From assembly GCA_022825135.1 (NCBI GenBank), contig JAJDYN010000004.1, positions 1 to 64,000 of the forward strand: a stretch of 64,000 nt of DNA. Direction: 5' to 3'. Shown in pieces: positions 11,372-48,862 of the stretch. Every line of letters starts with the position of its first letter. Within the stretch, counting starts at the first letter, position 1. Under the pieces are notes generated by a model. The model searched no databases and was not told the origin of the DNA. It saw only the letters and a list, made by a program, of their open reading frames with translations. A program made the translations under genes and the position numbers. Source of the DNA: Gemmatimonadota bacterium. Lineage in GTDB: Bacteria; Gemmatimonadota; Gemmatimonadetes; Longimicrobiales; Gaopeijiaceae.

Positions 11372-11381
11372 GTGGTACGCG

Positions 11382-11458
11382 CCCCTCTGCGGGGTGTTGC
11401 CAAATCGAAAAGGCAACATATTGTTGCATTTTGTGTTTTGCAACACGCCACGGAGGGG
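11382..11458. repeat. Terminal-inverted-repeat intergenic element, copy 1
   Basis: This 77-bp element is bounded by 19-bp inverted arms (11382-11400 and 11440-11458, 16 of 19 positions pairing). The arms have the form CCCCTC..GTGTTGC and GCAACAC..GGAGGGG. Inside lies the near-palindrome GCAACATATTGTTGC (11413-11427) and the word AAATCG next to the left arm. The same organisation recurs at 47354-47457. It lies between the XRE regulator and a P450 gene, both on the minus strand, so it could act in the P450 downstream region or in control of the regulator. Confidence 0.75.
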
Positions 11459-11505
11459 TCAGACAGACGATGCTCTAGCCCGCAGCCGGTCTACTCCAGG
11501 CCCGC

Positions 11506-12813: not shown

Positions 12814-12902
12814 GGATAAGTACGCTGCCAGCCGGTGCAGGTTGCATGCCGCCGCCCTGCCGGCGCGCGCGTTGTCGATTCTCCTGAAGCGGAATGCCAG
12901 CC

Positions 12903-22754: not shown

Positions 22755-23288
22755 CTATTGTGCTAGAACCGAGTTCTGGTCCAGCCACTCTGTGATCGAA
22801 TCTGGACGAGAATATCCGTTATCTCGCAAGAGCGCAACGATATCTGTGCCTGCGATAACAATAACGGGGTGCTGGTCTTCTTTGATTTCTCGATAAGCTT
22901 GAGGGTTAAGGTAACTGGTTGTCACCAGGATGCCGAACTGCCGGTGACGTAGACGAGAGATCAAACGAGACACATCCTTAACGCCAACTCCACTTGAGAG
23001 TTTGTAGCACTTTGCTTCAAGTGCAAAGTCGACCAGGATGCCAGATGCTCCACTCCCAATCCGAAGACTACCAATCGCATCTCTCCCCCCATCGCGCGAG
23101 GGTCGCGTCAGATCGATTTGTGCAATGTCTGGGAGCAGTAGTTTAGCGAGTGCAGCTGCACAGCGCTCGAAGCCATGAAAATCGTCTCGAAAATACTCTT
23201 GAATTCCCTTCAGAATAGAGCGTTCTTGTGGATTCTCTGGAATCTGCTCCAGTCTAGTTCTGTGCTCGATCGACCTGGTAGCAACCAA
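22755..23288 (-). CDS. Mrr-like restriction endonuclease, 5' end missing or joined out of frame
   Basis: The 177-residue reading from a TTG carries a PD-(D/E)xK Mrr-type core: FERCAAALAKLLLPDI, SRDGGRDAIG, then DFALEAKCYKL (Asp-x(n)-Glu-Ala-Lys) and GILVTTSYLNPQAY. The same frame stays open to 23498 and encodes further family-like sequence (KGSRFQNYRARFSVLDAP, then SLPRAWIDDIIAGNP) but has no usual start codon there. The true N-terminus therefore seems lost. The DNA is visibly more AT-rich than the surroundings, which suggests recent transfer. It overlaps the end of the restriction-methyltransferase frame by 79 bp. Confidence 0.75.
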   Translation of the reverse strand: MVATRSIEHRTRLEQIPENPQERSILKGIQEYFRDDFHGFERCAAALAKLLLPDIAQIDLTRPSRDGGRDAIGSLRIGSGASGILVDFALEAKCYKLSSGVGVKDVSRLISRLRHRQFGILVTTSYLNPQAYREIKEDQHPVIVIAGTDIVALLRDNGYSRPDSITEWLDQNSVLAQ

Positions 23289-27248: not shown

Positions 27249-28412
27249 ATGGCACGCACGAAACGAAGTCGGCGCTCCTACGGCGCCGGGGAATGGGGCC
27301 GGAACCGGGTCAGGATCTTTCCCGACCCGAAAACCGGCATCTTCCAGATCGAGTGGCGGGAGAACGGGCGCAGGCGCACCCGGTCCCTCAAACATCGCGA
27401 CTGGGCGCGCGCGAAGAGACAGGCGGATCAGTTCGCCGCCGGGTTCATCGACGCGCCCAACGGCAAGGCGGAAGCCGAGCCCAAGCCACTCGCCCTGGAA
27501 CGGCTTTTTGAAATCTACGGCGAGGAGGTGACGCCCACCAAGAGGCGGCCGTCCCGACAGCGGGACAGGGTCGCGATGGCGATGTTCCTCAAGTTCTTCG
27601 GCAGGAGCCGAAGGCCGGAAACCCTGTCACAACGAGACTGGGACCGGTTCATCCGGGAGCGCCGGGCGGGCACGGTCGGCCCCAGTGGCAAGCGAGTGGG
27701 TGACCGGATGATCGAAGCGGACCTGACGTTCCTGATGGCGGTGCTCAACTGGGCGGCGCGGTCGCGGGACGAAGAGGGCCGCCTGCTTCTCGACAGGAAT
27801 CCGCTCAAGGGTCTCAGGAAGCCCGTCGAGAAGAACCCCAACCGGGTCGTTCTCACGGAAGAGGAATACCAAGCCCTTCTCGGGGTCTCGCGGCAGGTCG
27901 ATTGGCGGTTCCACGCCGCCCTCGTGCTCGCGCACGAGACCGGTCACCGCATCGGCGCGATTCGCAACCTCAGGTGGGCTGACATCGACCTTGAAGGCGA
28001 AACGGTACGGTGGCGCGCCGAGCACGAGAAGACGGGGTACGAGCACCGGACGCCCTTGACCCCGGAGGCCATCGAAGCCTTCGAGGAGGCGCGAAGGCGC
28101 AACCCGGCCAACGGGGAAGCGCCGGTGCTGCCCGCGACCATGAATCCCTCGGAGTGCTTGGGCTTCCCGCAGGCCCGCTTCTGGTGGAAGCGGGCGGAGA
28201 GGCTCGCGGGACTCGAACCGAAGCGCGGCAGGGGCTGGCACTCGCTGCGGCGGAAGTTTGCCTCCGACCTCATGGACCTGCCGCTCAAGGTGCTCTGCGA
28301 ACTCGGAGGCTGGAAGGCGGCCAAGACGGTGCTCCGGTGCTATCAGCAGCCGGACGAGGCGCAACTCAGGCAGGCAATCCGCAGCCGCCGCAGGCCGTCA
28401 ACTCGGGCCTGA
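27249..28412 (+). CDS. Tyrosine-type site-specific integrase/recombinase
   Basis: The 387-residue protein starts at 27249, with an AGAGAGGAA motif upstream. It has an N-terminal arm-binding part (GIFQIEWRENGRRRTRSLKH), a SAM-like core-binding helix bundle (residues about 85-190) and the catalytic domain. Catalytic residues visible are Arg234 (HETGHRIGAIRNLRW), His331-x-x-Arg334 (GWHSLRRKF) and Tyr365 (LRCYQQPDE). It cuts and rejoins DNA through a phosphotyrosine intermediate. Together with the surrounding restriction and defence genes it marks this region as a mobile island. A perfect 8-bp inverted repeat follows immediately. Confidence 0.9.
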   Translation: MARTKRSRRSYGAGEWGRNRVRIFPDPKTGIFQIEWRENGRRRTRSLKHRDWARAKRQADQFAAGFIDAPNGKAEAEPKPLALERLFEIYGEEVTPTKRRPSRQRDRVAMAMFLKFFGRSRRPETLSQRDWDRFIRERRAGTVGPSGKRVGDRMIEADLTFLMAVLNWAARSRDEEGRLLLDRNPLKGLRKPVEKNPNRVVLTEEEYQALLGVSRQVDWRFHAALVLAHETGHRIGAIRNLRWADIDLEGETVRWRAEHEKTGYEHRTPLTPEAIEAFEEARRRNPANGEAPVLPATMNPSECLGFPQARFWWKRAERLAGLEPKRGRGWHSLRRKFASDLMDLPLKVLCELGGWKAAKTVLRCYQQPDEAQLRQAIRSRRRPSTRA

Positions 28413-30053: not shown

Positions 30054-30109
30054 AAGGATGATCCGCCGGCTCAGGCGGACCCCCCCCAGGCACAAAATAT
30101 ATTACTCGT

Positions 30110-30139
30110 TGATGATAACGACGCAAGAAGTTATCATCA
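30110..30139. promoter_or_regulatory. Inverted-repeat operator candidate before the ATPase-NACHT operon
   Basis: TGATGATAAC (30110-30119) and GTTATCATCA (30130-30139) form perfect 10-bp arms around a 10-bp spacer. The site ends 5 bp before the ATG at 30145 and follows an AT-rich TATATTA stretch that could be a -10 box. The GATAAC/GTTATC arms are the same words used in the TumE/TumA palindrome at 20776. Confidence 0.65.
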
Positions 30140-30144
30140 TCCCC

Positions 30145-31419
30145 ATGAACGCCTTCGAACGCCCCCTGGTCGACGACCTCGTCCGTCTCCTGGCCGACGA
30201 TCTGCCCCCGCGGATCGTGGCCATCACCGGTCCGCGTCAGTCCGGCAAGACGACCATCGTGCGGCAGGCGCTGAGGCGGGTGCGCGCGGCCGGACTCAGG
30301 GGCTGGCACATCGGCGTGGACGATCCTCAGGCGGGCATCGGTATGCGCGTTGCAGGATCGGAAACGACCACCGTTCCCGTCGATCCCACGCTCCGCAACG
30401 CCGAGTGGCTCGTCGGCGTCTGGGAGCAGGCCCGGGACAGGGCGTGGCGTCACGGACGCGGATTCGTCCTCGCCCTCGACGAGATTCAGGACGTGGACGG
30501 CTGGTCCGGTGTGGTCAAGGGGCTGTGGGATCGGGATCGGGAGACGGGGTGCCCCCTCAAGGTAATCATCCTCGGATCCGCGCCATGGGCCCTGCTCACC
30601 GGCAGGGGCGAGAGCCTTGCCGGGAGGTTCATCCCCCTGGATGTCCGTCACTGGTCGTTGCAGGAAATGGTAATCTCCTTCGATTTCGACCTCAACGAGT
30701 ATCTGTTTTTCGGGGGTTATCCCGGGGCCGCGCCTTTGATCCGGGATATGAGGATGTGGCGCGGCTACGTGGCGTACTCCATCATCGCGCCGGTCTTCGG
30801 ACGCGACATTCTGGCGCTGACGCGGGTGGACAAGCCCGCTCTGATGCGCCAGCTCGTGGACCTGGTCCCGCAGTACTCGGGGCAGATCGTCAGGTACGCC
30901 AACCTGGTGGGGAGGCTTCGGGACGCCGGAAACGCAACGACCGTGGGCCACTACCTCGATCTCCTCTCCGACGCCGGCATCGTGGCCCAGTTGCCCAACT
31001 ACTCGGGGAGCGCCGTCCGGCGGACCGGGTCCAGCCCCAAGCTCAACGTGCTCAACACAGGGCTGATGACGGCGCTGTCCGGCTATTCCTTCGATCAGGC
31101 TCTCGCGGACCGCACGTTCTGGGGCCGGGTGGTCGAGAGCGCGGTGGGAGCGCACCTCCACAACACCCTCGAACCGGCCATGAGGCTGTGCTACTGGAGA
31201 GACGACCCCGACGAGGTCGACTTCGTGCTCTCGCGGGGCCCCCGCGTGCTCGGCATCGAGGTCAAGAGCGGCAGGTGGGCTCGGGCCCTGCGGGGACTGC
31301 AGGCGTTCGAGAACAGGTTCCCGAAGGCACGGACGTTGCTGGTCGGCGGGCGCGGAGGAATCCCGCTGAACGAGTTCCTCGCCGAACCCGCGTCCTTCTG
31401 GCTGGAGGGGGACTGGTGA
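30145..31419 (+). CDS. AAA ATPase with DUF4143 domain, copy 2, coupled to a NACHT-nuclease gene
   Basis: The 424-residue protein starts at 30145 (MNAFERPLVDDLVRLLADDL); the frame extends upstream but through repeats and the operator. Walker A is VAITGPRQSGKTT and Walker B is GFVLALDEIQDVDG. The DUF4143 part includes LNVLNTGLMTALSG and ends with the nuclease-like DEVDFVLSRGPRVLGIEVKSG. The gene overlaps the next by 4 bp (GTGA), so the two are translationally coupled. No clear Shine-Dalgarno site precedes the start, and a palindrome directly abuts it. Only the second reading, as part of a two-gene defence-like unit, is inference. Confidence 0.85.
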   Translation: MNAFERPLVDDLVRLLADDLPPRIVAITGPRQSGKTTIVRQALRRVRAAGLRGWHIGVDDPQAGIGMRVAGSETTTVPVDPTLRNAEWLVGVWEQARDRAWRHGRGFVLALDEIQDVDGWSGVVKGLWDRDRETGCPLKVIILGSAPWALLTGRGESLAGRFIPLDVRHWSLQEMVISFDFDLNEYLFFGGYPGAAPLIRDMRMWRGYVAYSIIAPVFGRDILALTRVDKPALMRQLVDLVPQYSGQIVRYANLVGRLRDAGNATTVGHYLDLLSDAGIVAQLPNYSGSAVRRTGSSPKLNVLNTGLMTALSGYSFDQALADRTFWGRVVESAVGAHLHNTLEPAMRLCYWRDDPDEVDFVLSRGPRVLGIEVKSGRWARALRGLQAFENRFPKARTLLVGGRGGIPLNEFLAEPASFWLEGDW

Positions 31420-35496: not shown

Positions 35497-36651
35497 TCAC
35501 TCAAGCCCTTCATCGCAAGCCCGCGCCAACCCCACCGCCTCCACGCGCTCGTGCAGCCGAAAGCGGTCACCGCCGGGATGGATCACGAAGATCCGGTCGA
35601 GCTTGAGATCCGTCAGAGCCGAGTGCATCGACCGCGTCATCCTCGGAGCGCTGGTTCGCTTGAACTCCACCCCGGTCCGGCGCCCGCCATCGAAGACCAG
35701 CAGATCGATCTCGGCGCCGCGGTGGGTCGCCCAGTAGTAGCAATCCTCCCAGTCGACGGACAGAATCCGAACCACCTCGTGCATCGCGAACCCTTCCCAG
35801 GAAGCGCCCGACCCGGGGTGGCCGAGGAGTGCCGACCCGGTGTTGAGCCTCAGCAGCGAGTGCAGCAGGCCGGTATCGGTCAAGTAGACCTTCGGAGCCT
35901 TGACCTGGCGCTTCTTCAGGTTCTCGAACCAGGGCGTCAGCTTCCTCACGAGCAGAGAATCGACAAGCGCGTCGAGATAGGAGTTGACCGTTGGAGCGCT
36001 CAACCCCAGGGAACGCGCGACTTCGGCGGCGTTCCAGCGGCCGCCGTGATAGTGCGCCACCATGGTCCAGAAACGCCGTATCGTGGTGGCCGGCACGGCG
36101 ATGCCGAGCTGAGGCAGATCACGCTCGAGAAAGGTGCGGATGAAGGCGCTCCGCCACGTTGCGCTCTCCGTTTCGTCAGCCGCAAGAAACGAGAGCGGGA
36201 ATCCACCCCTGATCCACAGCCGGTCGATGAACTCGGTGCCCGTCTCGTCCGTTCGGAACGGAGGCAGCTCGTGGTAGACGATCCGGCCGGCGAGCGACTC
36301 GGACGATTGCCGCAGCAGCTCCGGGCCGGCACTGCCCAGCACCAGGAATCGGGCCCTGTTGGAAGGCCGGTCCACGAGGACGCGGAGCAGCCGGAACAGC
36401 CCTTCGGCGTGCTGCACCTCATCGATAACGACAAGGCCGTCCAGCGATTCGAGCGCGAGCTTGGGATCCGCAAAACGTGCCTCGTCGGTCGGATCTTCCA
36501 GGTCGAAGAACGTAATCCGGCCCTGCTCGCGAGCGGCCAGGCTGCGGGCCAGAGTCGTCTTGCCCACTTGCCGGGCACCCACGAGCCCGACTACGGGGAA
36601 CTGGCTCAGGAGGCGGCGGAGGCGCGCCTCGTGACGGGGTCGGGGAATCAT
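35497..36651 (-). CDS. AAA ATPase with DUF4143 domain, copy 3
   Basis: The 384-residue protein has Walker A VGLVGARQVGKTTLA, Walker B LDGLVVIDEVQHAEG and the following FLVLGSAGPELLRQSSESLA. A winged-helix part (AAEVARSLGLSAPTVNSYLD) comes next, then the DUF4143 region with KVYLTDTGLLHSLLRL. The C-terminal GAEIDLLVFDGGRRTGVEFK is a nuclease-like motif with Phe in place of the usual Val of E-V-K. It is the first gene of a likely two-gene operon with the YdeI-like gene. A 39-bp near-perfect inverted repeat starts 12 bp upstream of the ATG. Confidence 0.85.
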   Translation of the reverse strand: MIPRPRHEARLRRLLSQFPVVGLVGARQVGKTTLARSLAAREQGRITFFDLEDPTDEARFADPKLALESLDGLVVIDEVQHAEGLFRLLRVLVDRPSNRARFLVLGSAGPELLRQSSESLAGRIVYHELPPFRTDETGTEFIDRLWIRGGFPLSFLAADETESATWRSAFIRTFLERDLPQLGIAVPATTIRRFWTMVAHYHGGRWNAAEVARSLGLSAPTVNSYLDALVDSLLVRKLTPWFENLKKRQVKAPKVYLTDTGLLHSLLRLNTGSALLGHPGSGASWEGFAMHEVVRILSVDWEDCYYWATHRGAEIDLLVFDGGRRTGVEFKRTSAPRMTRSMHSALTDLKLDRIFVIHPGGDRFRLHERVEAVGLARACDEGLE

Positions 36652-38750: not shown

Positions 38751-39854
38751 ATGATCACGAGAGCCAACGGCCGGGTCCCGCACCGCATCGATGAGCTCCC
38801 GCCGTTTCCCGACGGCTGGTATTTCATCGTGACCCGCGAGACCCTGCTGAAGGAAAAGCTCATCGAGAAGACCTGGATGGGCGAGGAGATCGTCGCCTGG
38901 TGCGACGACGATGGCCGGATCTGCGTGGCCGACGCGTTCTGCCCCCACCTGGGCTCGCACCTGGGACCGACGGCCGGCGGCACCATACGGGACGGCTGCC
39001 TGGTCTGCCCCTTCCACGGCTTCACCTTCGATTCCGCCGGCCAGTGCGTCGCCACGCCCAACGCCCCGGCGCCCCGGGCCGCGAAGCTGAAGCTCTACGA
39101 GACCAGGGAGATCCTGGGCATGGTCTTCGCGTGGTGGGGCGTCGGCGGGCGAACGCCGCAGTGGGATATGCCGCGGGAGCCACCCACGGGCGCGGACTGG
39201 AGCGGGCTGGCGTTCGCCACCCTTCGCTTCCGGGGCCATCCCCAGGAGACGACCGAGAACTCCGTGGACCTGGAGCACCTGGAGTACACGCACGGTTACC
39301 ACGACGTGGAGCCGACCGCCTTTTCGATCGACGGCGCGTACCTCAGGAGCTGCTTCGACTTCAGGAACGTCCGCAGGGTCGCGGGGCTGATCGACATCGA
39401 GTCCGAGATATCGACCGTCACCCACGTCCATGGCCTGGGTTACTCCTTCGTCGAATTCCACGAGAAGGCGATCGGCATGGACTCCAGGCTGTGGGTCCTC
39501 TCGACGCCGGTCGACGGCGAGTTCGTCGAACTGAACCTGGTCAGCCAGACCCGCGAGGTCGCGAGGCCCGGACGGTACATCGTGGGTCTGGGATTCCTGC
39601 CGAAGAAGCTCCGCAACAGGCTGATGAACCGCATTCTCATTCACGAGGAGAGGCGGTTCGTGGCGCAGGACGTGGTCATCTGGGAGCGGAAGCGCTACCA
39701 GTCCCCGCCCCGCCTGTGCCGGGCCGACGGGCCCATCGGCAGGTACCGCCTGTATTGCCGCCAGTTCTATCCGCAACTGGCCATGCGGGAAAGGGGTCAA
39801 CGCCGCCAGTGGACGGACGGAGTCCGAACACGACGACTGTCCGAGCATAAATGA
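38751..39854 (+). CDS. Rieske [2Fe-2S] oxygenase, KshA/DAF-36/SdmA-like
   Basis: The 367-residue protein has a Rieske cluster site, Cys64-Pro-His66 and Cys86-Pro-Phe-His89. The mononuclear iron site in ENSVDLEHLEYTHGYHD supplies His176 and His181 plus a distal acid. The layout is that of the oxygenase component of steroid 9-alpha-hydroxylase (KshA), cholesterol 7-desaturase (DAF-36/Neverland) and the bacterial sterol C-4 demethylase SdmA. A separate reductase would be needed. It is the first of four same-strand genes whose enzyme classes all act on sterols. Substrate is inference. Confidence 0.85.
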   Translation: MITRANGRVPHRIDELPPFPDGWYFIVTRETLLKEKLIEKTWMGEEIVAWCDDDGRICVADAFCPHLGSHLGPTAGGTIRDGCLVCPFHGFTFDSAGQCVATPNAPAPRAAKLKLYETREILGMVFAWWGVGGRTPQWDMPREPPTGADWSGLAFATLRFRGHPQETTENSVDLEHLEYTHGYHDVEPTAFSIDGAYLRSCFDFRNVRRVAGLIDIESEISTVTHVHGLGYSFVEFHEKAIGMDSRLWVLSTPVDGEFVELNLVSQTREVARPGRYIVGLGFLPKKLRNRLMNRILIHEERRFVAQDVVIWERKRYQSPPRLCRADGPIGRYRLYCRQFYPQLAMRERGQRRQWTDGVRTRRLSEHK

Positions 39855-40014
39855 GCCTGGCGATCTCCACCCCGATCGCGTCCCACCGCGACCGGCAGCC
39901 CACCGGAAATGCGGAAGAATCCGACCAGTATGGGCGGTCCTTGCGCGCTTCGGCGCATCGTATCAATCTAGTGGAACTTCGGACCCTCAAACTTCACGCC
40001 AGGGGAGAAGTGGG

Positions 40015-42048
40015 TTGATTGGTGTCTCACGAACCAGCAATCGGGACGACCCGGGGGCCTCCTCGCTGAGTCTGCCGGAGGAGTTGCTGCTGGCGCTGCT
40101 GGACGAGGAGAGCGGTTACTTTCGTCAGGTACCCGGCTGGAACCTGAACTGCGCCATGGTCGGCGCAGTGCTGGGTGAACTGTCGCTGCTCGGTCGCATC
40201 GACACCGATCTGAAGTCGCTGATTCTGGTCGATTCGACCGATACCGGTCGTCCGATACTCGACCCGATCCTGCGGGAGATCGCGACCGAAACGGAACAAC
40301 ACAATGTCCGCTACTGGGTTGAGCGGCTGGTTCCGCAGTCCGAGTCGGTGATCAACCATGCGCTGGACCGGCTCGTTCGCCGACAGGTTCTGGACCACCA
40401 TCAGGGCGGTTTCTATACATTCGCCAGGCGGCAGCGGTCGAGCGAAACGTCCCTTGAACACCTGGCGGGCGAGTTCGTAAAGGCCCGGCTGACCAGGATC
40501 ATCTTCGCGGATGAAATTCCGGATCCGCGCGAGGTGATTATTACTGGCCTCGTCAACGCCTGTAACGTGTTCAATCTGATGTTTCAGATCGACGAGGAAG
40601 CGGAAGAGCGGATTGAGTTCGTCAGTAAGATGGACGTGATCGGCCGGGCGATAGCGGAGGCGGTGACCCAGAGCATCGTCGCGCCCACGCTTCGCCGGCC
40701 CTCGCTGACCAAGCGGATTCCAACCGTGTCCCTGCGTGATCTGGTGTTCAACCGCGAGCTGCGGGAGGGGAGGCTGCCGGCAGGGTTCGCCCTTTTGGCC
40801 GAAAAGTACGGTCCGGTGTTCGAACTCAGGATCCCGTTCCGACAGAACATCATTGTCCTGGCGGGGTTGAAGGCGAATCAATGGGCCAATCGCATGGGGC
40901 GGATTTTCCTGCGGTCGAAGGAGTACTTCGAGGGCGTCGACAAGGCGTATGGCGTGTCGCGCTCAATGCATTCGGTTGACGGGGCCGATCACTTTCGCTT
41001 TCGCAAGTCGTTGCAGCCCGCCTACTCTCAGGCGACTTTGACCAGGCGTCTGGACGAGGTCTATGATCTGGCCCGCACGCACATGGCGAGTTGGGACGTC
41101 GGCTCCACCATGCCGGTGCAGGCGATGCTGCGGCCATTACTGAACGCACAGTCATCGCCGCTCCTGGCAAGCATTGACACCCAGGACGAGATTGTCGACG
41201 CGCTCGAATACAAGGTGCGGGTGCTCAATGTGGGCATCGTCAAGACGATGCCGAGTTTCATGCTCAAGACCCCGTCGATGCGCCGCCGGGCGAAGGCCAC
41301 GCAGAAGATCATAGACCGTATGCAAAGTACACATACGGCCACGCAGCGGGTCGGGAAGCACAAGGATGTGGTGGACGCGTACCTGGCCCTGCACGCGTCC
41401 GATCCGCAGTTCCTGCCCGAGTCGGACCTGTCGCTTCCGCTGGGGGCGATCCTGATGACCGCCATGTACATGGGCGACCAGGTCGGCTTTGCCCTTTACT
41501 GGCTGCTGAAGAATCCCGACTTGTACGAGCGAGTGACGGCCGAAGCGGATGCGTTGTGGGCCGAGGGCGATCCCGGCGAGGATGACCTCACTCCGGACCG
41601 GATCGACGTGACCCGCCGAGTGCTGATGGAGGCTCTGCGGATGTCGCCGATCGTGGCCATGTCGATGCGCACGGTGATGAATACCTGCGTGGTGGAGGGG
41701 TACGAATTGCCGGTCGGGGCCCAGCTCGTGATTGCGCAGACGGCCACGCACTACTCGGAAGAGACGTTTCCCGATCCGTGGACGTTCGACATTGACCGCT
41801 ACGCGCCCCCGCGCAACGAGCATCGGGGCGGAGGCTACGCGCCCTTCGGGCTGGGCACGCACTCATGCCTCGGGCGCCGCTGGGCCCACCTGCACATGGC
41901 GATCAACCTGCTGATGCTGACCCATCACTTCAAGATCGAGCTGGCCCGCCCCTTCAAGCGGATGCCCATGGATCCGTTGCCGTCGCAGTCGCCCAGCAAC
42001 AAAATCAGGATCAGGCTCGCCGAGCAGCGGCACGAACTCCGAGTCTGA
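40015..42048 (+). CDS. Cytochrome P450 with N-terminal GPP34 (GOLPH3-like) domain
   Basis: The 677-residue protein begins at a TTG preceded by AGGGGAG. Residues about 20-225 are a GPP34 domain: LPEELLLALLDEESGYF, LNCAMVGAVLGELSLLGRID, and a final helical bundle. Residues about 235-670 are a P450 with the K-helix MEALRMSPIVAMSMRTV (ExxR) and the heme loop FGLGTHSCLGRRWAHL (Cys618). The I-helix MTAMYMGDQVGFALYW lacks the usual acid-threonine pair. In eukaryotes GPP34 proteins bind phosphoinositides at Golgi membranes; here it may tether the oxidase to a membrane or lipid. I do not know this fusion from characterised proteins. Confidence 0.88.
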   Translation: MIGVSRTSNRDDPGASSLSLPEELLLALLDEESGYFRQVPGWNLNCAMVGAVLGELSLLGRIDTDLKSLILVDSTDTGRPILDPILREIATETEQHNVRYWVERLVPQSESVINHALDRLVRRQVLDHHQGGFYTFARRQRSSETSLEHLAGEFVKARLTRIIFADEIPDPREVIITGLVNACNVFNLMFQIDEEAEERIEFVSKMDVIGRAIAEAVTQSIVAPTLRRPSLTKRIPTVSLRDLVFNRELREGRLPAGFALLAEKYGPVFELRIPFRQNIIVLAGLKANQWANRMGRIFLRSKEYFEGVDKAYGVSRSMHSVDGADHFRFRKSLQPAYSQATLTRRLDEVYDLARTHMASWDVGSTMPVQAMLRPLLNAQSSPLLASIDTQDEIVDALEYKVRVLNVGIVKTMPSFMLKTPSMRRRAKATQKIIDRMQSTHTATQRVGKHKDVVDAYLALHASDPQFLPESDLSLPLGAILMTAMYMGDQVGFALYWLLKNPDLYERVTAEADALWAEGDPGEDDLTPDRIDVTRRVLMEALRMSPIVAMSMRTVMNTCVVEGYELPVGAQLVIAQTATHYSEETFPDPWTFDIDRYAPPRNEHRGGGYAPFGLGTHSCLGRRWAHLHMAINLLMLTHHFKIELARPFKRMPMDPLPSQSPSNKIRIRLAEQRHELRV

Positions 42049-42082
42049 GTTCGCTGCGCCCGCTCCTCCAGCGCAACTCGCA

Positions 42083-43111
42083 ATGAAATCACCCGACGGC
42101 GGACGACCTCGCACCGTACGGGTGATCACCGGGGCGAGCGGGCAGATCGGCGGGGTGCTGACGCGGGCTCTCGCCGACAGGTACGGGCCCCGTCAGGTCC
42201 GTGCGCTCTATCGGGAGCGTCGGGGGACGGCGGCGGATCTGGACGTCGCATGGGTCAGGGGCGACATCCTCGACAAGGAAACGCTGATCGCCGCCTTCGA
42301 GGGCGCGGAGAGCGTGTTCCACTTGGCCGCGCTGGTCTCGATCGGTTCCGTCAGGGCTCGGGAGTTCCATCGCACGAACGTCCTGGGCACCCGCAACGTC
42401 GTGGAAGCGGCGCTCGAATGCGGGGTGAGGCGCCTGGTTCATGTTTCCTCGATCCACGCGTACGACCAGCACCCTCTGGACGAAGTGCTTGACGAGAGCC
42501 GCGGTCCCGCGGACAGCGCGCGCGACGCGCCCTACGACCGTTCGAAAGCCGCCGGCGAAGTGGAAGTCCGCCGCGGCATCGACCGCGGCCTCGATGCCGT
42601 GATCCTGAATCCGACCAGCGTGCTCGGCCCCTGGGACGGCGCTCCGTCGCCCATGGGGCAGCTGTTTCTCGATCTCTACCGCAGGCGGCTTCCCGCGCTG
42701 ATCGCGGGTGGCTACGACTGGGTCGATGTGCGCGACGTCGTGGCGGCCATCATGGCCGCCGAGACACAGGCGAGATGTGGCGAGAACTATCTCGTCTCAG
42801 GTCGCTGGCACACCGTGCGCGAACTGGCGGAGCTTTCCCGGCGGGCAACCGGAGTTCCCGGACCCCGCCTCCAGTTCCCGATGTTCGCCGCCCGGTTGTG
42901 GGCGCCCTGCCAGGTCGTCCTGGATCGGTGTCGCGGACGCCGTCCGCTCTACACGCCGGCGTCCGTCCGCGTCATGGCCCATGGCAATCGGCGGATATCC
43001 AGCGCCAGGGCGCAGGCGGAACTGGGGTTCCACCCGCGTTCGCTCGCGGAATCGATCGAGGACACCTACCGCTGGTTCGACGAACACGGCATGCTGGGCG
43101 ACGAGGCGTGA
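42083..43111 (+). CDS. NAD(P)-dependent SDR, 3-beta-hydroxysteroid dehydrogenase/SdmB-like
   Basis: The 342-residue extended short-chain dehydrogenase has a Rossmann motif VITGASGQIGGVLTRALA, a DxxD-type VRGDILDKETL, SSIHAYDQ as the catalytic serine strand and YDRSKAAGE as the Tyr-x3-Lys pair. The branch is that of 3-beta-HSD, dihydroflavonol reductases and the sterol 4-demethylation reductases. It would oxidise a 3-hydroxyl or reduce a 3-keto group. It follows the GPP34-P450 by 34 bp and abuts the 5-alpha-reductase gene with no gap, which indicates a shared transcript. Confidence 0.8.
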   Translation: MKSPDGGRPRTVRVITGASGQIGGVLTRALADRYGPRQVRALYRERRGTAADLDVAWVRGDILDKETLIAAFEGAESVFHLAALVSIGSVRAREFHRTNVLGTRNVVEAALECGVRRLVHVSSIHAYDQHPLDEVLDESRGPADSARDAPYDRSKAAGEVEVRRGIDRGLDAVILNPTSVLGPWDGAPSPMGQLFLDLYRRRLPALIAGGYDWVDVRDVVAAIMAAETQARCGENYLVSGRWHTVRELAELSRRATGVPGPRLQFPMFAARLWAPCQVVLDRCRGRRPLYTPASVRVMAHGNRRISSARAQAELGFHPRSLAESIEDTYRWFDEHGMLGDEA

Positions 43112-43873
43112 ATGGCTGAAGAGCGTCTGCACGGGTGGCTGATATGGGGCGTCCTCGCGATGGCGCCCCTGACGTTCCTGTACCTGCTCCGCAGGGCCGC
43201 GCCCTACGGGCGCCATTATGCGAATGCGGGCTGGGGGCCGGACGTTTCCGCCAGGCTCGCATGGATCATCATGGAGCTGCCGGCGCCTGCGGTCTTCCTG
43301 GCCGTCCATCTCAACGGCAGGAGCGCTTTCCAGATCGTGCCGCTGCTGTTCCTGGCCATGTGGCAGGGCCACTATCTGAACCGGACGTTCGTCTATCCGT
43401 TTCGCATCCGGTCGAGCGGTCGGAAGACGCCCCTCGTCCTGGTCGGATCCGGCTTTCTCTTCAATGCGATCAACGCGTACATCAATGCCCGCTTCATATC
43501 GGAGTTCGGTGACTATGCCACTGAATGGCTCGCCGACCCCCGCTTCCTGATCGGTGTGGGGATATTCCTCGCCGGGCTCGTGCTCAATCTCCACGCCGAC
43601 AACATCCTCATGCGCCTGCGCCGGCCCGGCCAGACGGGCTATGCGATACCGCAGGGCGGCGGGTTCCGCTTCGTCTCGTGTCCGAACTACCTGGGGGAAA
43701 TCCTCGAATGGACGGGCTGGGCGGTCGCCACCTGGTCGTCGGGCGGCCTTGCATTCATGCTGTTCACCGTCGCCAATCTCGCCCCGAGGGCGCGGAGCAA
43801 CCACCGGTGGTATCGGGAAACCTTCAGCGATTATCCGGCAAATCGCCGGGCCCTGATACCGGGCATCTACTGA
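43112..43873 (+). CDS. Steroid 5-alpha-reductase family membrane enzyme
   Basis: The 253-residue polytopic membrane protein has the SRD5A C-terminal domain: FRFVSCPNYLGEILEWTGWA, TWSSGGLAFMLFTVANLAPR, HRWYRETFSDYP and the terminal ALIPGIY. These line up with the NADPH- and substrate-binding segments of human SRD5A1 (NYFGEIMEW, HEWYLRKFEEYP). It would reduce a delta-4 double bond of a 3-keto steroid, or a related enone. The start codon directly follows the SDR stop. Its stop region overlaps the convergent RND pump gene by 7 bp. Confidence 0.88.
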   Translation: MAEERLHGWLIWGVLAMAPLTFLYLLRRAAPYGRHYANAGWGPDVSARLAWIIMELPAPAVFLAVHLNGRSAFQIVPLLFLAMWQGHYLNRTFVYPFRIRSSGRKTPLVLVGSGFLFNAINAYINARFISEFGDYATEWLADPRFLIGVGIFLAGLVLNLHADNILMRLRRPGQTGYAIPQGGGFRFVSCPNYLGEILEWTGWAVATWSSGGLAFMLFTVANLAPRARSNHRWYRETFSDYPANRRALIPGIY

Positions 43874-46800
43874 CGCCCGGGCGTGATCAGACGCAGGCGG
43901 ATTGAAGTCAGCGCGGGCACCAGGAACATCAGGATGACCGTGGTGAAGAGGATGCCGCAGCCGATCGAGGCGGAGAAGGGAACGAAGAACTGCGCCTGAA
44001 TGGCGTCTTCCAGAATCAGGGGCGTGAAGCCGAGGAAGGTCGTCAGCGAGGTGAGCATGATGGGACGGAAACGCCCCTTGGCGCCCTCGATGATCGCGGT
44101 TCGCGCCGGGAGGCCTTCATCGAGTTCCTGGTCGATGAAATCCATCATGACCAGGGAATCGTTCACCACCACGCCGGCCAGGCCGAACATCCCGATGAAG
44201 GACTCCGAGCTCAGGGTGACGCCCAGGATCAGGTGCCCCAGGATCACCCCGATGAACCCGAACGGGATGACGGCCATGATGATGAACGGCTTGGTGTAGG
44301 AGCGCAGCGGGATCGCCAGCAGCGAGAAGATCAGGATCATGGCGACCCCGAACCCGGGGCCCAGCGCGTTCAGGGACTCCAGTTGCTGCTGCTGCTCGCC
44401 GCCAAAGCTGTAGGTCAGTTCCGGGTCCTCGGCGACAATCCCCGCAAGGATGTCGTCTTCCAGGATCCCGGTGGCCCGCCCGCCGGAGATCACCGCCGGA
44501 TCCACATCCGCGGAGACCCTGACGACGCGCTGGCCGTCCTGGCGATGGATGGCGGTCGGCGACCTGCCCGAGCTCAGGGAAGCCACCTGGCTCACCGGGA
44601 CCTCGGCGCCGGCCGGCGTCCGGACCAGGGAGTTCTCGATGTCGGTGATCGAGTTGCGCTGTTCCTCGGGCAGCCGCACGTACACGCGAACCTCTTCCGG
44701 GCCCCGCTGCACGCGCAGGGCCTCCGCGCCGAAGAACGCGGCGCGCGTCTGTCCGGCGAGGTCGTCGAGGGTGAGACCCAGGGTTCGCGCCTCGGGCAGG
44801 AGGCCGAGCTGGATCTCCGGGATGCCGGGCGTGTGATCGGAGCGAATGTCGTGGACGCCTCCCACCTGGCGGAGGCGGCCCACGACCGCGGTTGCGATCC
44901 CGGGGAGGCGCTCGGGGTCCGGATGCGACAGGACCGCCTCGACGGGGTTGCCGAGGTCGTAGATCCTGGCGCTGATGGCCACCGAGCGCACATGGGGCAG
45001 GACGCCCACCTCCTCGCGCCACGCCTGCGCGACCTCTCCCGTGGGAATGCGCCGATCCTGTGCGTCCAGGAGCTTGAACGCGATGGTGGCGACGTTGGGT
45101 TCGGGGTTGAGGTTGGGATTGGGACTGAGTCCCCCTCCCTCGACCCGCGGCCGTTGACCGACGGTGATCGTGACCCCGGAAAGGAGGGGAGGCGCATCGG
45201 CGGGCCGATCCCGCGAGATGCGTTCGATGGCCCGGTGGCCGGCCGCCTCCAGTTCCTGCGCCACCTCGTAGGTTCGCTCGGCCGTGGTCCCGTCGGGCAT
45301 CTCGAGGGTGGCGGTCGCGAAATCCCCCTCCACCTCCGTGGCCAGGGTGAACGGGACGATGCCGGCCGGCAGCATGGCGGCACACAGGATGAGCAGGGCG
45401 ACCGCTCCCGAGAGCGTCAGTCCGGGCCGGTCGGTGGCGAACGTGATCCCGCGATGCAGCGGGCCCTGCACGAACCTCCCCAGCAGCAGATCGACCCCGC
45501 CCTGAATCCGGGCCACGCGCTGCTCCAGGCGCGTCCGGGGTGACCAGCCCGGGCCGTGCAGGTGGTGGGACAGGTGGTTGGGCAGCACCAGCAGCGACTC
45601 GATCAGCGAAATCACCAGCATGGCGATGACGATGGTCGGCAGCGCCTTCCAGGTCTGCCCGACGCCTCCGGGAATGAAGAGCAGGGGGGCGAACGCGGCG
45701 ATGGTCGTCAGCACCGCGAAGATCAGCGGCACTTTGATTCGCCGCGCACCGCGGATCGCCGCGACGACGCCCGGCGTGCCCTTCATTCGTTCCAGGTGGA
45801 TGTGCTCGGAGACGACGATCGCGTCGTCCACCACGATCCCTACCGCGAGGACGAACGAGAACAGCGAGACCGCGTGGATCGCCAGGTCGAACGCCATCAT
45901 GACGGCCAGCGCGCCGATGCCCGAGATTCCGAGGCCGACGGCCACCCAGAATGCGAGCCGCAGTTCGAGAAACAGTCCCAGGGCGATCAGCACCAGCAGG
46001 AGCCCGAGAAGGCCGTTCTTGATGAGGATGGCGGCGCGCTCCTCGAAGGCGTCGGATTCGTCGTTCCAGATGGTGATGCCCACGCCGTCCGGGAGCGCGG
46101 GGGCCACCTCGCTCGCGACGTGCTCGCGAACGGTGCCCACCACGCTCATCACATTCTCGCCGTCGGCCCTCGAAACCTCGACGAAGGCGGCCGGCAGCCC
46201 CTGGTGCCGGACGATCAGATCCGTGTCCCGGAATCCGTCGCGCACTTCGGCGACATCGCCCAGGCGGACGACCGTGCCGTCACTGCGGCTGAGGAGGACG
46301 ATCTCCTCGAAGTCCTGCTGGTCGTAGCTCTGCCCCAGCGTGCGCACGCGCACCTGCGTCTGCTCCGTGTCGATGCTCCCGGCGGAGAGGTCCAGGGAAC
46401 TGCGGCGAATGGTATTGGCGATATCGGTCAGCGTGAGCCCGAGGGCGCGAAGCCGCTGCAGGGGCACTTCGATCGAGATCTCGTAGTTTCGCACGCCGCT
46501 CGTCTCGACCTGCGAGACGGAGGGAAGCGCGGCGAGATCGTCCTCGATGCGGTAGGCGATCTCCTTCAGCGTCCGTTCGGTCGCATCGCCGAACACGATC
46601 AGGCGCATCACGCTCTGGGCGTTGGTCAGCTCCCGTATCTGGGGCCGCTCGGCCTCGCCCGGGAACGTCTGAATTCGCCCGACCGCCGCTTCGACATCGG
46701 CCAGGGCGTCGTTGATGTCCGTGCCCGAATGCACCTCCACCCGGACCGAGCCCATTCCCGGGGCCGCCACGGACCGGACGGACTTCACGTCGTCCAGCCC

Positions 46801-47049
46801 GCTGACCTCGTCCTCGATCTTGACGACGATGCCCTCCTCCACTTCCTCGGGGGTGGCGCCCGGATAGGCGACCGACACCTCCACCTGGTTGAAGGGCACG
46901 GTGGGCCATGCTTCCAGCTCGAGTCCGGCCAGCGACACCAGACCCGCGGCGAGGATCCCGAACATCAGCAGGTTGGCGGCAACGCTGTTGCTCGCCATGT
47001 AGGCGATGGGGCCTGGTTTTTCGCCGTGGCTGATCGGGTTCGAGGTCAT
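43867..47049 (-). CDS. RND efflux transporter permease (AcrB/CusA-type)
   Basis: The 1060-residue inner-membrane pump has the repeated 12-helix architecture: LELEAWPTVPFNQVEVSVAY near the start, IVVDDAIVVSEHIHLERMKG in TM4-type position, and VVVNDSLVMMDFIDQELDEG in the second half. The large periplasmic porter loops carry conserved GATPEEVEEGIV and SVAAPGMGSVRVEV-like segments. It exports drugs, lipids or metals with proton counter-flow and needs a membrane-fusion protein and an outer-membrane channel, which are not encoded in the window. It may serve the neighbouring sterol-type cluster, but it is on the opposite strand. Confidence 0.92.
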   Translation of the reverse strand: MTSNPISHGEKPGPIAYMASNSVAANLLMFGILAAGLVSLAGLELEAWPTVPFNQVEVSVAYPGATPEEVEEGIVVKIEDEVSGLDDVKSVRSVAAPGMGSVRVEVHSGTDINDALADVEAAVGRIQTFPGEAERPQIRELTNAQSVMRLIVFGDATERTLKEIAYRIEDDLAALPSVSQVETSGVRNYEISIEVPLQRLRALGLTLTDIANTIRRSSLDLSAGSIDTEQTQVRVRTLGQSYDQQDFEEIVLLSRSDGTVVRLGDVAEVRDGFRDTDLIVRHQGLPAAFVEVSRADGENVMSVVGTVREHVASEVAPALPDGVGITIWNDESDAFEERAAILIKNGLLGLLLVLIALGLFLELRLAFWVAVGLGISGIGALAVMMAFDLAIHAVSLFSFVLAVGIVVDDAIVVSEHIHLERMKGTPGVVAAIRGARRIKVPLIFAVLTTIAAFAPLLFIPGGVGQTWKALPTIVIAMLVISLIESLLVLPNHLSHHLHGPGWSPRTRLEQRVARIQGGVDLLLGRFVQGPLHRGITFATDRPGLTLSGAVALLILCAAMLPAGIVPFTLATEVEGDFATATLEMPDGTTAERTYEVAQELEAAGHRAIERISRDRPADAPPLLSGVTITVGQRPRVEGGGLSPNPNLNPEPNVATIAFKLLDAQDRRIPTGEVAQAWREEVGVLPHVRSVAISARIYDLGNPVEAVLSHPDPERLPGIATAVVGRLRQVGGVHDIRSDHTPGIPEIQLGLLPEARTLGLTLDDLAGQTRAAFFGAEALRVQRGPEEVRVYVRLPEEQRNSITDIENSLVRTPAGAEVPVSQVASLSSGRSPTAIHRQDGQRVVRVSADVDPAVISGGRATGILEDDILAGIVAEDPELTYSFGGEQQQQLESLNALGPGFGVAMILIFSLLAIPLRSYTKPFIIMAVIPFGFIGVILGHLILGVTLSSESFIGMFGLAGVVVNDSLVMMDFIDQELDEGLPARTAIIEGAKGRFRPIMLTSLTTFLGFTPLILEDAIQAQFFVPFSASIGCGILFTTVILMFLVPALTSIRLRLITPGRQ

Positions 47050-47584: not shown

Positions 47585-47597
47585 CTAATGCTCGATG
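47522..47597. repeat. 16-17 bp tandem repeat abutting the spondin stop codon
   Basis: On the minus strand TTAGCCGCATCGAGGG recurs about five times with small changes, beginning with the spondin-gene stop codon itself. The plus-strand form is CCCTCGATGCGGCTAA. The array gives each shifted copy a stop codon. Confidence 0.65.
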
Positions 47598-48862
47598 CGC
47601 GTGAAGGTGAACGTGCCGATGGGCGCGTTCGAGAAGGGGGCCTCGCCGCGCAGGCTGCGGACGGGCTGTCTGGGCGAGGAGTCGGCGTTGGCGGAGGTGT
47701 AGGTGGTCCCGTCGTCGGTACCCGAGTCGTAGGGGTAGAGGGTGACCCCGAGCTCCTCCACCCACTGCCCGAACTCGTCCATCAGCGACAGCCCGGACAC
47801 GCCCACGAACCAGTCGGGGCTCGGGGCGATCATGGTGACCAGGGTGACGAGGGGGTAGTCCGTCCGGACGACCACCCGGGAGATGGTCGTGCGGGCCGGG
47901 CTGGTGCCGAGGCCGGGTCCGCTGATGACGGAGAGCGCGGCGGCCGGGATCCGGGCGCGGATTTCCGACCGGAGCGTGCTGGTCCCACCCGTCTCGGCCA
48001 TGCTCTCGATGCCGGGGGTGGCCGTCTCGCCGCTGGCCCAGAAGCGGACGCCGTCGTCGTGCACCGCCCCGATGAGCGGCGAGAAGTGGGCGCCGCGCGG
48101 GTAGTCGGTCGGGTGGGTGGCGGCGCTCCAGGTGGCGTCGAAGACGACGCTGTAGGCGGCCGAGTCGGGCGGGGCGGGGAGCTCCCCGGCGGCCGCGCGG
48201 ATGTCGGTCGAGACTCCCTCGGCCACCGACGCCGTGAGGGTCTGGGCACCGGCCGCGTTGCCCAGCGTCCAGGTCGTGCCGGCAAGGCCGGCCGCGTCGG
48301 TGGCCGCGGTGGCCGGGTCGGCGGACCCATGCCCGTCGGCCGCCGAGAAGGTCACGGTGGCGCCCGCGACCGGCGAGCCGCCCGCGTCGTCCACCCGCAC
48401 CACCACGGCCTCGGCGAGCGTGCTGTCCGCCATCCCCTCCTGCCCGCCCCCCGACACGACCACGATGGCCGCGGGGGCCTGCGCCACCACCACCCGGGCG
48501 GTCGCGCTCAGCGCCTCGTGCGACGCGGTCAGGGTACCCGACCCGTTCGCGACGGCGCTGACCACTCCGGTGGGGGTCACGGCAAACACGGCCGGGTCGC
48601 TGCTCGACCACCCGACCGTGCCGGAGAAGGCCGCGCCGAACTGGTCGGTCAGGGTCGCGTTGAAGGTGGCCGTCTCGCCCAGCGACGAGAGCGTCGCCGA
48701 CCCGGGCGAGATGGCGAGCGCGGCGGCCTGGCGCGCGGGGGATCCGGGCGGCGGTTCGGTGCCGGAGTCGCCGCACGCGGCCAGGGCGGCGACCCAGAGG
48801 AAGCTCCGGAGGACGCGCGGAAGGCCACGCCTTTGGACGGATGTCCGGATTACGTTCTTCAT
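47585..48862 (-). CDS. Lipoprotein with bacterial Ig-like and Spondin_N domains
   Basis: The 425-residue protein has a lipoprotein signal ending VAALAAC. One Big_2-type Ig-like domain (ALAISPGSATLSSLGETATF, residues about 45-125) is followed by a Big_1-like segment (VVVRVDDAGGSPVAGATVTF, about 130-215). The spondin N-terminal domain comes last: YSVVFDATWSAATHPTDYP, FSPLIGAVHDDGVRFWA, then WFVGVSGLSLMDEFGQWVEE (about 235-410). Spondin domains in animals mediate matrix adhesion; in bacteria the role is unknown, and a surface adhesion or interaction function is plausible. The stop codon lies at the edge of a tandem repeat. Confidence 0.85.
   Translation of the reverse strand: MKNVIRTSVQRRGLPRVLRSFLWVAALAACGDSGTEPPPGSPARQAAALAISPGSATLSSLGETATFNATLTDQFGAAFSGTVGWSSSDPAVFAVTPTGVVSAVANGSGTLTASHEALSATARVVVAQAPAAIVVVSGGGQEGMADSTLAEAVVVRVDDAGGSPVAGATVTFSAADGHGSADPATAATDAAGLAGTTWTLGNAAGAQTLTASVAEGVSTDIRAAAGELPAPPDSAAYSVVFDATWSAATHPTDYPRGAHFSPLIGAVHDDGVRFWASGETATPGIESMAETGGTSTLRSEIRARIPAAALSVISGPGLGTSPARTTISRVVVRTDYPLVTLVTMIAPSPDWFVGVSGLSLMDEFGQWVEELGVTLYPYDSGTDDGTTYTSANADSSPRQPVRSLRGEAPFSNAPIGTFTFTRIEH

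Follow-up and report, generated by a model that had tools for sequence, protein, structure and literature searches.

Introduction

A run of steroid-type enzymes in an uncultured Gemmatimonadota bacterium raises the question of whether such genes serve to make sterols, to degrade them, or to modify sterols obtained from elsewhere. The genes lie in a 64,000-nucleotide stretch of DNA (referred to here as the window) for which a first-pass annotation, made from the sequence alone, had proposed a four-gene cluster for steroid tailoring. According to the available text of PMC10070321, the origin of the odd sterols of sponges, animal or bacterial, is an open question which also bears on sterane biomarkers, and the prior studies cited here, in the parts available, mostly seek bacteria capable of de novo sterol synthesis. 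Where symbionts carry a tailoring cassette but no oxidosqualene cyclase, a different route is indicated, in which supplied sterols are modified, and the cassette provides named genes with which this can be tested.

A cluster of four steroid-type genes

The ORF check placed four adjacent genes on the + strand at 38751–43873 (Table 1), with intergenic gaps of 160, 34 and 0 bases, and the last two genes do follow each other without a gap (43111/43112) as first described. The Pfam domain calls for the four proteins were each above the gathering cut-off, and the classes previously assigned to the last three were borne out by the p450 (118.2 bits), 3Beta_HSD (72.5 bits) and Steroid_dh (175.2 bits) matches. 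Neither a ferredoxin nor a reductase partner was apparent among the four genes. At its downstream end the cluster meets a convergent RND gene, whose last 7 bases overlap the final cluster gene. We note that this pump had been overlooked earlier as a member of the recurring neighbourhood.

Table 1. Positions of the cluster genes, the domains of the P450 fusion and the convergent pump gene within the window.
Feature	Position	Strand	Basis
KshA-type Rieske non-heme iron oxygenase, 367 aa	38751..39854	+	Pfam, alignment, structural matches
GPP34–cytochrome P450 fusion, 677 aa, TTG start	40015..42048	+	Pfam, kept motifs
GPP34 domain about 40072–40668; P450 domain about 40786–41949	within 40015..42048	+	
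NAD(P)-dependent SDR, SdmB/HpnA/3-beta-HSD type, 342 aa	42083..43111	+	Profile models
Steroid 5-alpha-reductase (SRD5A1/2 type) membrane enzyme, 253 aa	43112..43873	+	Steroid_dh, PDB matches
RND-family (AcrB-like) pump, convergent with the cluster	43867..47049	-	ACR_tran 519.9 bits

The Rieske oxygenase and the SDR

The first protein belongs to the KshA_C-type Rieske oxygenases, as it carries both the Rieske (57.7 bits) and KshA_C (81.0 bits) domains and keeps all the ligands of the 2Fe-2S cluster and of the mononuclear iron (C64, H66, C86 and H89, and D173, H176, H181 and D307, all invariant in 26/26 aligned rows including the window), and the top six structural matches to its model were all KshA (TM 0.72–0.76). 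The nearest plasmid homologues among the matches listed (60 of 192 records) were Streptomyces proteins of unknown function (31% identity), with KshA at 25%, and 13 of these 60 were used as references in a tree of 41 rows which also held the SdmA of the Nitrospirales locus L173, a paralogue (L186), 25 of our 80 named cassette loci and the window protein. The 26 cassette proteins formed a separate clade (support 100/99), and the window protein fell on the side of the KshA_C sequences; it should be noted that the branch uniting the KshA_C references has a support of just 72/74 and that branches here are long (the eight rows grouped as KshA_C all pass the Pfam KshA_C cut-off). An SdmA identity was rejected, with 32.1 bits on the SdmA model (NF052579, cut-off 600) and KshA_C only, without VanA_C; of the likeness first suggested, the KshA-type half is supported and the SdmA half is not.

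The SDR also matched Pfam Epimerase (115.1 bits), and its score on the SdmB model (NF052578) of 209.1 bits was far below the cut-off of 600 and hardly above the 204.8 bits obtained with the HpnA model (cut-off 367.65), and SdmB was likewise rejected as an identity. For comparison, the L173 SdmB scored 286.9 and 213.0 bits on the same two models, again under the cut-off of 600. The parallel drawn earlier with C-4 demethylation failed in its SdmA part, and the SDR falls short of an SdmB identity.

The P450 fusion and the 5-alpha-reductase

The second gene encodes a fusion of GPP34 (102.6 bits, residues 20–218) and P450 (residues 258–645) which is retained by relatives in several phyla; the N-terminal domain had been overlooked in the earlier reading. 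The haem Cys motif FGLGTHSCLG and ExxR are kept and the usual I-helix acid–alcohol pair is missing. When the GPP34 part was used alone, phmmer reached only Vps74 (E 0.018), and literature searches on the fusion architecture turned up no description, the papers listed being on other subjects by title and abstract. The fusion suggests a way to tie a bacterial P450 to the membrane. The fold match of the P450 part was generic, as structure comparison could not separate sterol from fatty-acid P450s, and a CYP51 identity, and with it the kinship raised in the first-pass annotation, was rejected on a score of 76 bits compared to 335 bits for the CYP51 of L173.

The reductase is 54% identical to PbSRD5A (PDB 7c83; 134/250 alignment columns, E 2e-82, 279.9 bits), and also matches human SRD5A2 (E 2.7e-46, 161.4 bits) far better than the sole enoyl-CoA reductase found in the PDB (47.4 bits). 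Nine of the 11 named active-site and NADPH residues are kept (7/8 for NADPH alone). With Steroid_dh above cut-off, this places the enzyme in the SRD5A1/2 type. The comparison covered SRD5A1/2-type enzymes and enoyl-CoA reductase among the PDB hits, and it answers only in part the first-pass concern that the reductase might group with polyprenol reductase (SRD5A3) or ceramide-type relatives.

Sterol genes in the cassette genomes

The genome of the window bacterium has an SMT-family gene elsewhere (G000:C20, Sterol_MT_C 74.0 bits, cut-off 21.7), sister loci often hold SMT-family genes with Sterol_MT_C above cut-off, and 33 of the 34 SMT-bearing genomes among 395 from the phylum are also among the 43 with the Rieske gene. 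In L173 the cassette adjoins a canonical sterol operon (squalene epoxidase, CYP51, ERG24, SdmA, SdmB and SMT) whose SdmA-like protein carries VanA_C and scores 414.7 bits (cut-off 600). As L173 holds both sets, the cassette there is no stand-in for SdmA, SdmB and CYP51. The steroid tailoring first proposed is supported by these SMT-family genes and the sterol operon beside relatives, together with the KshA_C-side Rieske protein and the SRD5A1/2-type reductase.

The absence of a cyclase from the window was correctly noted, and family searches of the assembled genome, window included, found no cyclase match and no ERG24, and for squalene epoxidase reached just 19.3 bits (27.9 bits with neighbours), in a search that gave signals in two control genomes as well, those of E. 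coli and Caulobacter. An oxidosqualene cyclase plus squalene epoxidase, the pair by which we would recognise a de novo sterol locus, was therefore not found in this genome, although at 93% completeness such a gene may simply have escaped assembly; in G045, a genome of the same genus, an 867-aa frame gave a squalene-epoxidase-type match of 89 bits. Five cassette genomes are titled as chromosomes, and among these an oxidosqualene-type cyclase was found in 0/5 (three had no cyclase match and two a squalene-hopene cyclase only). Six of the 34 cassette genomes of the named set gave an oxidosqualene-type match, including the Opitutales genome L135, a MAG named in the available text of the Ircinia paper (PMC9531527), in which the SDR–SRD5A pair is also present. 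Fifteen of the 34 had no cyclase match at all at E 1e-20, and self-made hopanoids therefore cannot be the general substrate; squalene-hopene-cyclase-range genes occur in many cassette genomes, and 3/3 tested were squalene-hopene cyclases. From these searches the window bacterium and many other cassette carriers do not seem capable of de novo sterol synthesis. The first-pass annotation had left the substrate to be made elsewhere in the genome or taken from a host, and as neither a cyclase nor ERG24 turned up and the squalene epoxidase match was unconvincing, it is probably not made in this cell, making an outside supply the probable alternative.

Distribution and horizontal transfer

Our genome-wide scan gave 326 relatives, of which 80 were analysed as named loci, and neighbours were counted within 8 kb with identity floors applied. 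A pump of the same RND family lies no more than 8 kb from the Rieske gene in 56/80 of these loci, and 22/80 have no GPP34–P450 in this range, some of the loci being short. Among the 395 phylum genomes the Rieske gene occurs in 43, the cassette-type P450 in 40, and both in 39, a co-occurrence which is not chance (Fisher tests, which ignore kinship); at the thresholds used, 10 of the 43 lack SMT and 21 lack SRD5A. Going by the titles of the MAGs, the Rieske and GPP34–P450 genes recur as a pair in seven phyla, and with the RND pump too in five. Related kits are found in sponge- and coral-type bacteria from several phyla, judged by the hosts that the OX/CAT records and the isolate labels RHO, COS, IRC, APA, Plut, SB06xx and 'bin' suggest. 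The label jk18x/p16x is carried by 22/80 loci; one jk18x MAG name appears in the available text of PMC9531527, and p16x does not occur in its main text.

The window SDR is 83–92% identical to copies from Latescibacterota and Opitutales (two of them partial) and the SRD5A 87–91% (one partial), whereas RpoB is only 52–56% identical between those phyla, and we conclude from this that the SDR–SRD5A part moved horizontally. Parts of the cassette have apparently passed between phyla.

What might the cassette do?

Gene content, domain and residue conservation, a recurring neighbourhood, gene transfer and the lack of a cyclase match were all computed here, and on balance we think it likely that the cluster is a horizontally shared cassette which remodels sterols supplied by a host or neighbour and exports the product. 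The pathway we infer, in its sterol substrate, reaction order and sites, GPP34 role and direction of transport, would begin when a sterol, drawn from the animal host, from what it eats or from symbionts nearby, enters the membrane, where the KshA-type Rieske enzyme and the GPP34-held P450 would oxidise it. In the window version, the SDR would turn the 3-beta-hydroxyl into a 3-ketone and the SRD5A-type enzyme would reduce the delta-4 bond of the enone to give a 5-alpha steroid; the SMT encoded elsewhere in the genome may alkylate the side chain, and the RND pump would export the product.

Synthesis from scratch, with the Rieske protein and SDR as SdmA and SdmB in C-4 demethylation and the P450 as CYP51 in C-14 demethylation, is in our view highly improbable. 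The best model for the SDR is SdmB, and cassette and sterol operon lie side by side in L173, but the window Rieske and P450 score far below the L173 SdmA and CYP51, the former has KshA_C and not VanA_C, L173 has both gene sets, and the genome of the window bacterium has neither a cyclase nor an ERG24 match. Catabolism through the 9,10-seco pathway, in which the Rieske enzyme would be the 9-alpha-hydroxylase opening ring B, agrees with its KshA-like structure and C-terminal domain, but seems very unlikely as an HsaA-type match was found in 0/30 genomes (including this one) at E 1e-20, in a search confined to HsaA, using one actinobacterial query which recovered its source record and which remote types could escape, and as 5-alpha-reductase and methyltransferase represent reductive or anabolic steps.

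The enzymes might instead merely resemble steroid families and tailor other terpenoids or lipids such as carotenoids, hopanoids or meroterpenoids. KshA_C, P450 and SDR are all wide-ranging families, the nearest plasmid Rieske homologues among the matches listed have no known function, and squalene-hopene-cyclase-range genes are common in cassette genomes; we nevertheless consider this unlikely, as the SRD5A1/2-type reductase, the neighbouring Sterol_MT_C methyltransferases and the L173 operon junction all agree on steroids, and many cassette genomes have no cyclase match. Animal steroid hormone synthesis uses enzyme classes of this kind, and by analogy with the nematode dafachronic acids, the putative DAF-36/DAF-9 parallel of the first-pass annotation, the product could be a signalling steroid aimed at the animal host. 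The frequent nearby pump would suit such a role, as would the jk18x/p16x loci with one jk18x name in the available text of PMC9531527, but the gene set differs from locus to locus and we think it very unlikely that signalling is the function.

Returning to the remodelling of supplied sterols, a wider proposal is that sponge and coral symbionts of several phyla share, partly by transfer, a cyclase-independent steroid workshop centred on a new enzyme architecture, a GPP34-anchored P450 (its I helix without the usual acid–alcohol pair), together with a Rieske enzyme of its own clade and a dedicated pump, in which host or community sterols would be rewritten into products that build up in the animal or have effects on it. 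We regard this as speculative and rather doubtful; if true, part of the unusual sponge sterol inventory would come from bacterial tailoring and not from bacterial or animal de novo synthesis.

Comparison with known systems

The cassette shares with SdmA/SdmB the presence of a Rieske protein and an SDR in one cluster, and its SDR is within the SdmB/HpnA model range, but the domain make-up of the Rieske protein and the low model scores of both proteins set it apart, and in L173 SdmA and SdmB are separate from the cassette. The fold, KshA_C domain and iron ligands, including the QDxxIW region, are common to the window Rieske protein and KshA (PDB 4qdc, 4qdf and 2zyl), but identity to the KshA proteins compared is only 21–24%, the cassette clade is separate, and the cassette loci looked at have no kstD or hsa neighbours. 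CYP51 has the P450 fold in common and is the best PDB sequence match of the window P450, which differs in its far weaker score, GPP34 fusion and I helix.

The steroid clusters of Ircinia symbionts (PMC9531527) and the SMT clusters of sponge symbionts (PMC10070321) also involve sponge symbionts, horizontal spread and the SMT family; as described in the available text, these are built mainly around lanosterol synthase, CYP51 and ERG24, whereas the window cassette occurs in genomes without a cyclase match, and no mention of a Rieske/GPP34–P450/SDR/SRD5A/RND cassette was found in that text. The Methylococcus sterol transporter BstA is likewise an RND-superfamily pump beside steroid genes, but is of the MMPL/HpnN-like type according to the available text of PMC10942540, whereas the window pump is of the AcrB type with a putative sterol role. 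PbSRD5A, for which activity on progesterone has been measured (available text of PMC7815742), has the catalytic Glu and Tyr in common with the window reductase, in which the Gln of Q-E-Y is replaced by Met and one NADPH-site His by Asn.

Organisation of the gene cluster

The four same-strand genes proposed in the first-pass annotation are present as described, all on the + strand and with intergenic gaps of 160, 34 and 0 bases, between a divergent amidase gene upstream and a convergent AcrB-type RND gene downstream, the last 7 bases of which lie within the reductase gene. The enzyme classes given there (Rieske oxygenase, P450, 3β-HSD-like SDR and steroid 5α-reductase, SRD5A) agree with the Pfam matches, except that the P450 had not been recognised as a fusion protein with a GPP34 domain at residues 20–218. 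GPP34 is regarded as a membrane anchor by analogy with the eukaryotic family, and on that analogy the domain would anchor the P450 to the membrane.

Table. Features of the window, its own genome (G000) and compared loci (L, locus; G, genome; C, contig; SMT, sterol methyltransferase)
Feature	Location	Strand	Observation
Cluster	window 38751–43873	+	four genes
Gene 1		+	Rieske + KshA_C (Pfam, above curated cut-offs)
Gene 2		+	GPP34 + p450 (as above)
Gene 3		+	Epimerase/3Beta_HSD (as above)
Gene 4		+	Steroid_dh (as above)
Further P450	window 11506–12771	-	105.5 bits; no GPP34 match
AAA_14 + DUF4143 ATPase	window 18574–19851	-	one of three
AAA_14 + DUF4143 ATPase	window 30058–31419	+	one of three
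AAA_14 + DUF4143 ATPase	window 35497–36651	-	one of three
MmeI-like methyltransferase	window 23210–26035	-	with an integrase, near the ATPase genes
Spondin_N protein	window 47585–48862	-	domain familiar from animal matrix proteins (163.3 bits), with bacterial Ig-like domains
SMT	G000:C20:53538–54569		74.0 bits
Stand-alone GPP34 protein	L062 8498–9151 (G000:C39)		own genome
Distant GPP34-P450 fusion	L061 3881–5878 (G000:C11)		own genome; 34–36% identical; conventional I-helix motif
Second KshA_C-type Rieske	L186 8258–10535 (G162:C68); also G173:C49, G061:C68, G200:C3		about 30% identical; adjoins protein with weak cyclase-C-domain match (31–35 bits)
Integrase-type gene	L033 about 10737–13058 (G173:C8)		directly after SDR; 76% identical to window 27249–28412; SRD5A gene about 8.5 kb beyond, suggestive of an insertion within the cassette
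SRD5A-like piece	L046 4883–4999 (G099:C61)		39 residues, 69% identical; close to the SMT in a cassette locus of the same genus; possibly what is left of a former reductase gene
Epoxidase-cyclase protein	L178 5886–9263 (G173:C44); L185 8262–11639 (G061:C75)		single protein of 1125 aa; in L178, squalene epoxidase and both cyclase domains

Relatives and conserved residues of the enzymes

The Rieske protein had been likened to KshA, DAF-36 and SdmA. KshA proteins are its best solved relatives by sequence (E 7.9e-21) and provide all of the top six structural matches to its predicted model (mean pLDDT 78.4; TM 0.72–0.76), while the 2Fe-2S ligands and D173, H176, H181 and D307 are invariant in 26/26 aligned rows. 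Of 41 proteins placed in a tree, the 26 from cassettes (the window genes and their relatives elsewhere) form a single clade (100/99) on the KshA_C side, split at 96/92 from SdmA, VanA and the aromatic-ring types; it should be noted that support for joining the KshA_C references reaches just 72/74 and that several branches are long, so that kinship with KshA itself is no more than possible. The nearest plasmid homologs among the matches listed are Streptomyces proteins without assigned function (31% identity).

The P450 retains the haem cysteine and ExxR, and 18 of the 21 aligned rows, including the window protein, lack the acid-alcohol pair and have one residue fewer (judged on the alignment rather than on a structure), with G-x-(D/H)-T present in three distant GPP34-P450 paralogues. 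Its best PDB match is CYP51, an identity we rejected as the score is 76 bits against 335 for a real CYP51, and our verdict accepts neither SdmA nor CYP51 as an identity for the cassette. The SDR scores 209.1 bits with the SdmB model and 204.8 with HpnA, both below cut-off. The reductase is identical to the bacterial enzyme PbSRD5A (7c83) in 134 of 250 alignment columns and to human SRD5A2 in 91 of 234; it keeps the catalytic Glu and Tyr of the Q-E-Y motif, with Met in place of Gln, and 7/8 NADPH residues. PbSRD5A reduces progesterone in vitro, according to the available part of PMC7815742.

Recurrence and transfer of the cassette

GPP34-P450 matches were found in 48 of 395 Gemmatimonadota genomes (40 of cassette type, with 49% identity or more), the Rieske protein in 43, SMT in 34 and SRD5A in 26. 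Rieske co-occurs with the cassette-type P450 in 39 genomes (Fisher p = 4e-48), with SMT in 33 (p = 4e-38) and with SRD5A in 22 (p = 2e-20), all with kinship ignored. When named genomes were scanned with the Rieske alignment, 326 relatives came up, of which we kept 80, all titled as MAGs: by title, 41 Gemmatimonadota, 18 Acidobacteriota, nine Latescibacterota, seven Pseudomonadota, two each of Verrucomicrobiota and Nitrospirota and one Binatota, with at least two Pseudomonadota titles wrong (L099 and L101 match G389 and G086, both of the window's own genus). Within 8 kb of Rieske in these 80 loci lie GPP34-P450 (58), RND (56), FAD oxidoreductase (35), SMT (32), HlyD (18), SDR (8) and SRD5A (5); where a locus extends 8 kb or more to either side (39 loci), the corresponding counts are 31, 29, 15, 14, 12, 6 and 3. 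The glycosidase-like DUF608 and MGH1 are nearby as well, in 18 and 7 loci. Rieske and GPP34-P450 occur together in all seven titled phyla, and with RND in 27/41 Gemmatimonadota, 14/18 Acidobacteriota, 6/9 Latescibacterota, 4/7 Pseudomonadota, 1/2 Verrucomicrobiota, 0/2 Nitrospirota and 0/1 Binatota loci (within 8 kb of Rieske). These counts indicate a core of Rieske and GPP34-P450, usually with a pump, to which the SDR–SRD5A pair is a minority addition.

RpoB identity to the window's genome is 94–97% within the genus (n = 2), 70–72% within the family (n = 4), 67% for G162 and G292, 55–56% for Latescibacterota and 52% for Opitutales. The G162 P450 and SDR are 89–90% identical to the window's, and the Opitutales and Latescibacterota copies share 87–91% (SRD5A; 95% for one 40-residue piece) and 83–92% (SDR). 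In the five same-genus loci compared, out of seven genomes, the P450 is only about 52% identical, an SDR of the window type is missing and SRD5A is represented by no more than a 39-residue fragment (L046); Rieske identity within the genus is 82–85%. We read these identities as suggesting that Rieske was kept in the lineage and that the P450, SDR and reductase were acquired by transfer; the pump may have moved too, since RND identity is 88% in four other-genus loci against 78–86% in the five same-genus loci. In G292 the cassette seems to decay, as its GPP34-P450 gene (L057, G292:C31) is split in two frames. Locus L135 (Opitutales) belongs to MAG jk18x7bins.13, assigned in the available part of the Ircinia paper PMC9531527 to I. 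cf. reteplana.

Links to sterols and the search for sterol synthesis

Three SMT-family proteins beside cassettes match Sterol_MT_C at 56.7, 61.2 and 57.9 bits (cut-off 21.7), and the own-genome SMT shares 78–80% identity with four others from different genomes and 76% with the SMT in the operon of the Nitrospirales locus L173. This operon reads, on the minus strand, squalene epoxidase (PF08491, 83.2 bits, truncated at the edge of the locus), CYP51, ERG24 (PF01222, 238.6), SdmA (414.7), SdmB (286.9) and SMT, and is followed by the cassette FAD oxidoreductase, Rieske, a second SMT and GPP34-P450. In the Binatia locus L160, Rieske, GPP34-P450 and FAD oxidoreductase adjoin an SdmB-type SDR (252.7 bits).

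The suggestion that the rest of the genome be searched for sterol synthesis gave no match to cyclase family PF13243 in the 93% complete own genome, and for squalene epoxidase only 19.3 bits (27.9 with neighbours), in a search that also gives matches in E. coli and Caulobacter; five of the other 29 genomes reach 88–92 bits. ERG24, present in 12/30 genomes, was not found in the own genome. We note that draft assemblies may hide genes, as the same-genus G045 has an epoxidase-type match (89 bits) without a cyclase match. PF13243 matched in 11 of the 48 GPP34-P450 genomes (five at 90–184 bits, six at 34–36), and 19/34 cassette genomes of the named set have a cyclase match at E 1e-20. In the higher score range (351–485 bits) each of the three proteins tested passes the cut-off as a squalene-hopene cyclase; the lower (179–194 bits) comprises six genomes, mostly with frames of 1160–1484 aa that resemble the L178 protein, an oxidosqualene cyclase by score (TIGR03463, 682 bits; hopene cyclase, 252 bits) and, from its domains, apparently a naturally fused enzyme for the two opening steps of sterol synthesis. 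The genome containing L135, with its SDR–SRD5A pair, does have an oxidosqualene-type match. Among five chromosome-titled genomes, OX639991, OX638356 (the single-contig G017 and G058) and OX638377 have no cyclase match at E 1e-20, and OX638379 and OX638327 have a squalene-hopene cyclase only.

Interpretation and comparison with known systems

The cassette is real, recurring, partly mobile and of steroid type, and is larger than the four genes first annotated. The comparisons show its gene content, conserved residues, recurrence and transfer, and the search for a cyclase in the own genome was negative. We consider that it probably remodels a supplied sterol, and we infer both this substrate and the order of the reactions; the RND pump may then export the product. 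De novo demethylation is highly improbable. Steroid catabolism, with which the KshA likeness could be reconciled, is very unlikely, and we give just as little credence to a host-directed hormone on the lines of the nematode dafachronic acids. Tailoring of a non-steroid lipid is unlikely too, as the SMT and reductase similarities favour a steroid. The P450 fold search (model pLDDT 83.2) gives no information on substrate.

Every enzyme family of the cassette is already known. The literature searched, which covered few subscription papers or preprints, holds no mention of the cassette or the GPP34-P450 fusion, and the words sterol, steroid, P450 and Rieske are absent from the main text of the Palauibacterales paper. 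The novelty lies in how the genes are combined, in the fusion protein, in the distribution over several phyla and in the presence in genomes without oxidosqualene cyclase. The steroid clusters of sponge symbionts, in the part of PMC9531527 available, centre on lanosterol synthase, CYP51 and ERG24. As far as the accessible part of PMC10070321 goes, bacterial SMTs recovered from sponge metagenomes show activity in vitro, and a Chlamydiae MAG encodes an active SMT as its sole sterol homolog, providing a precedent for work on acquired sterols.
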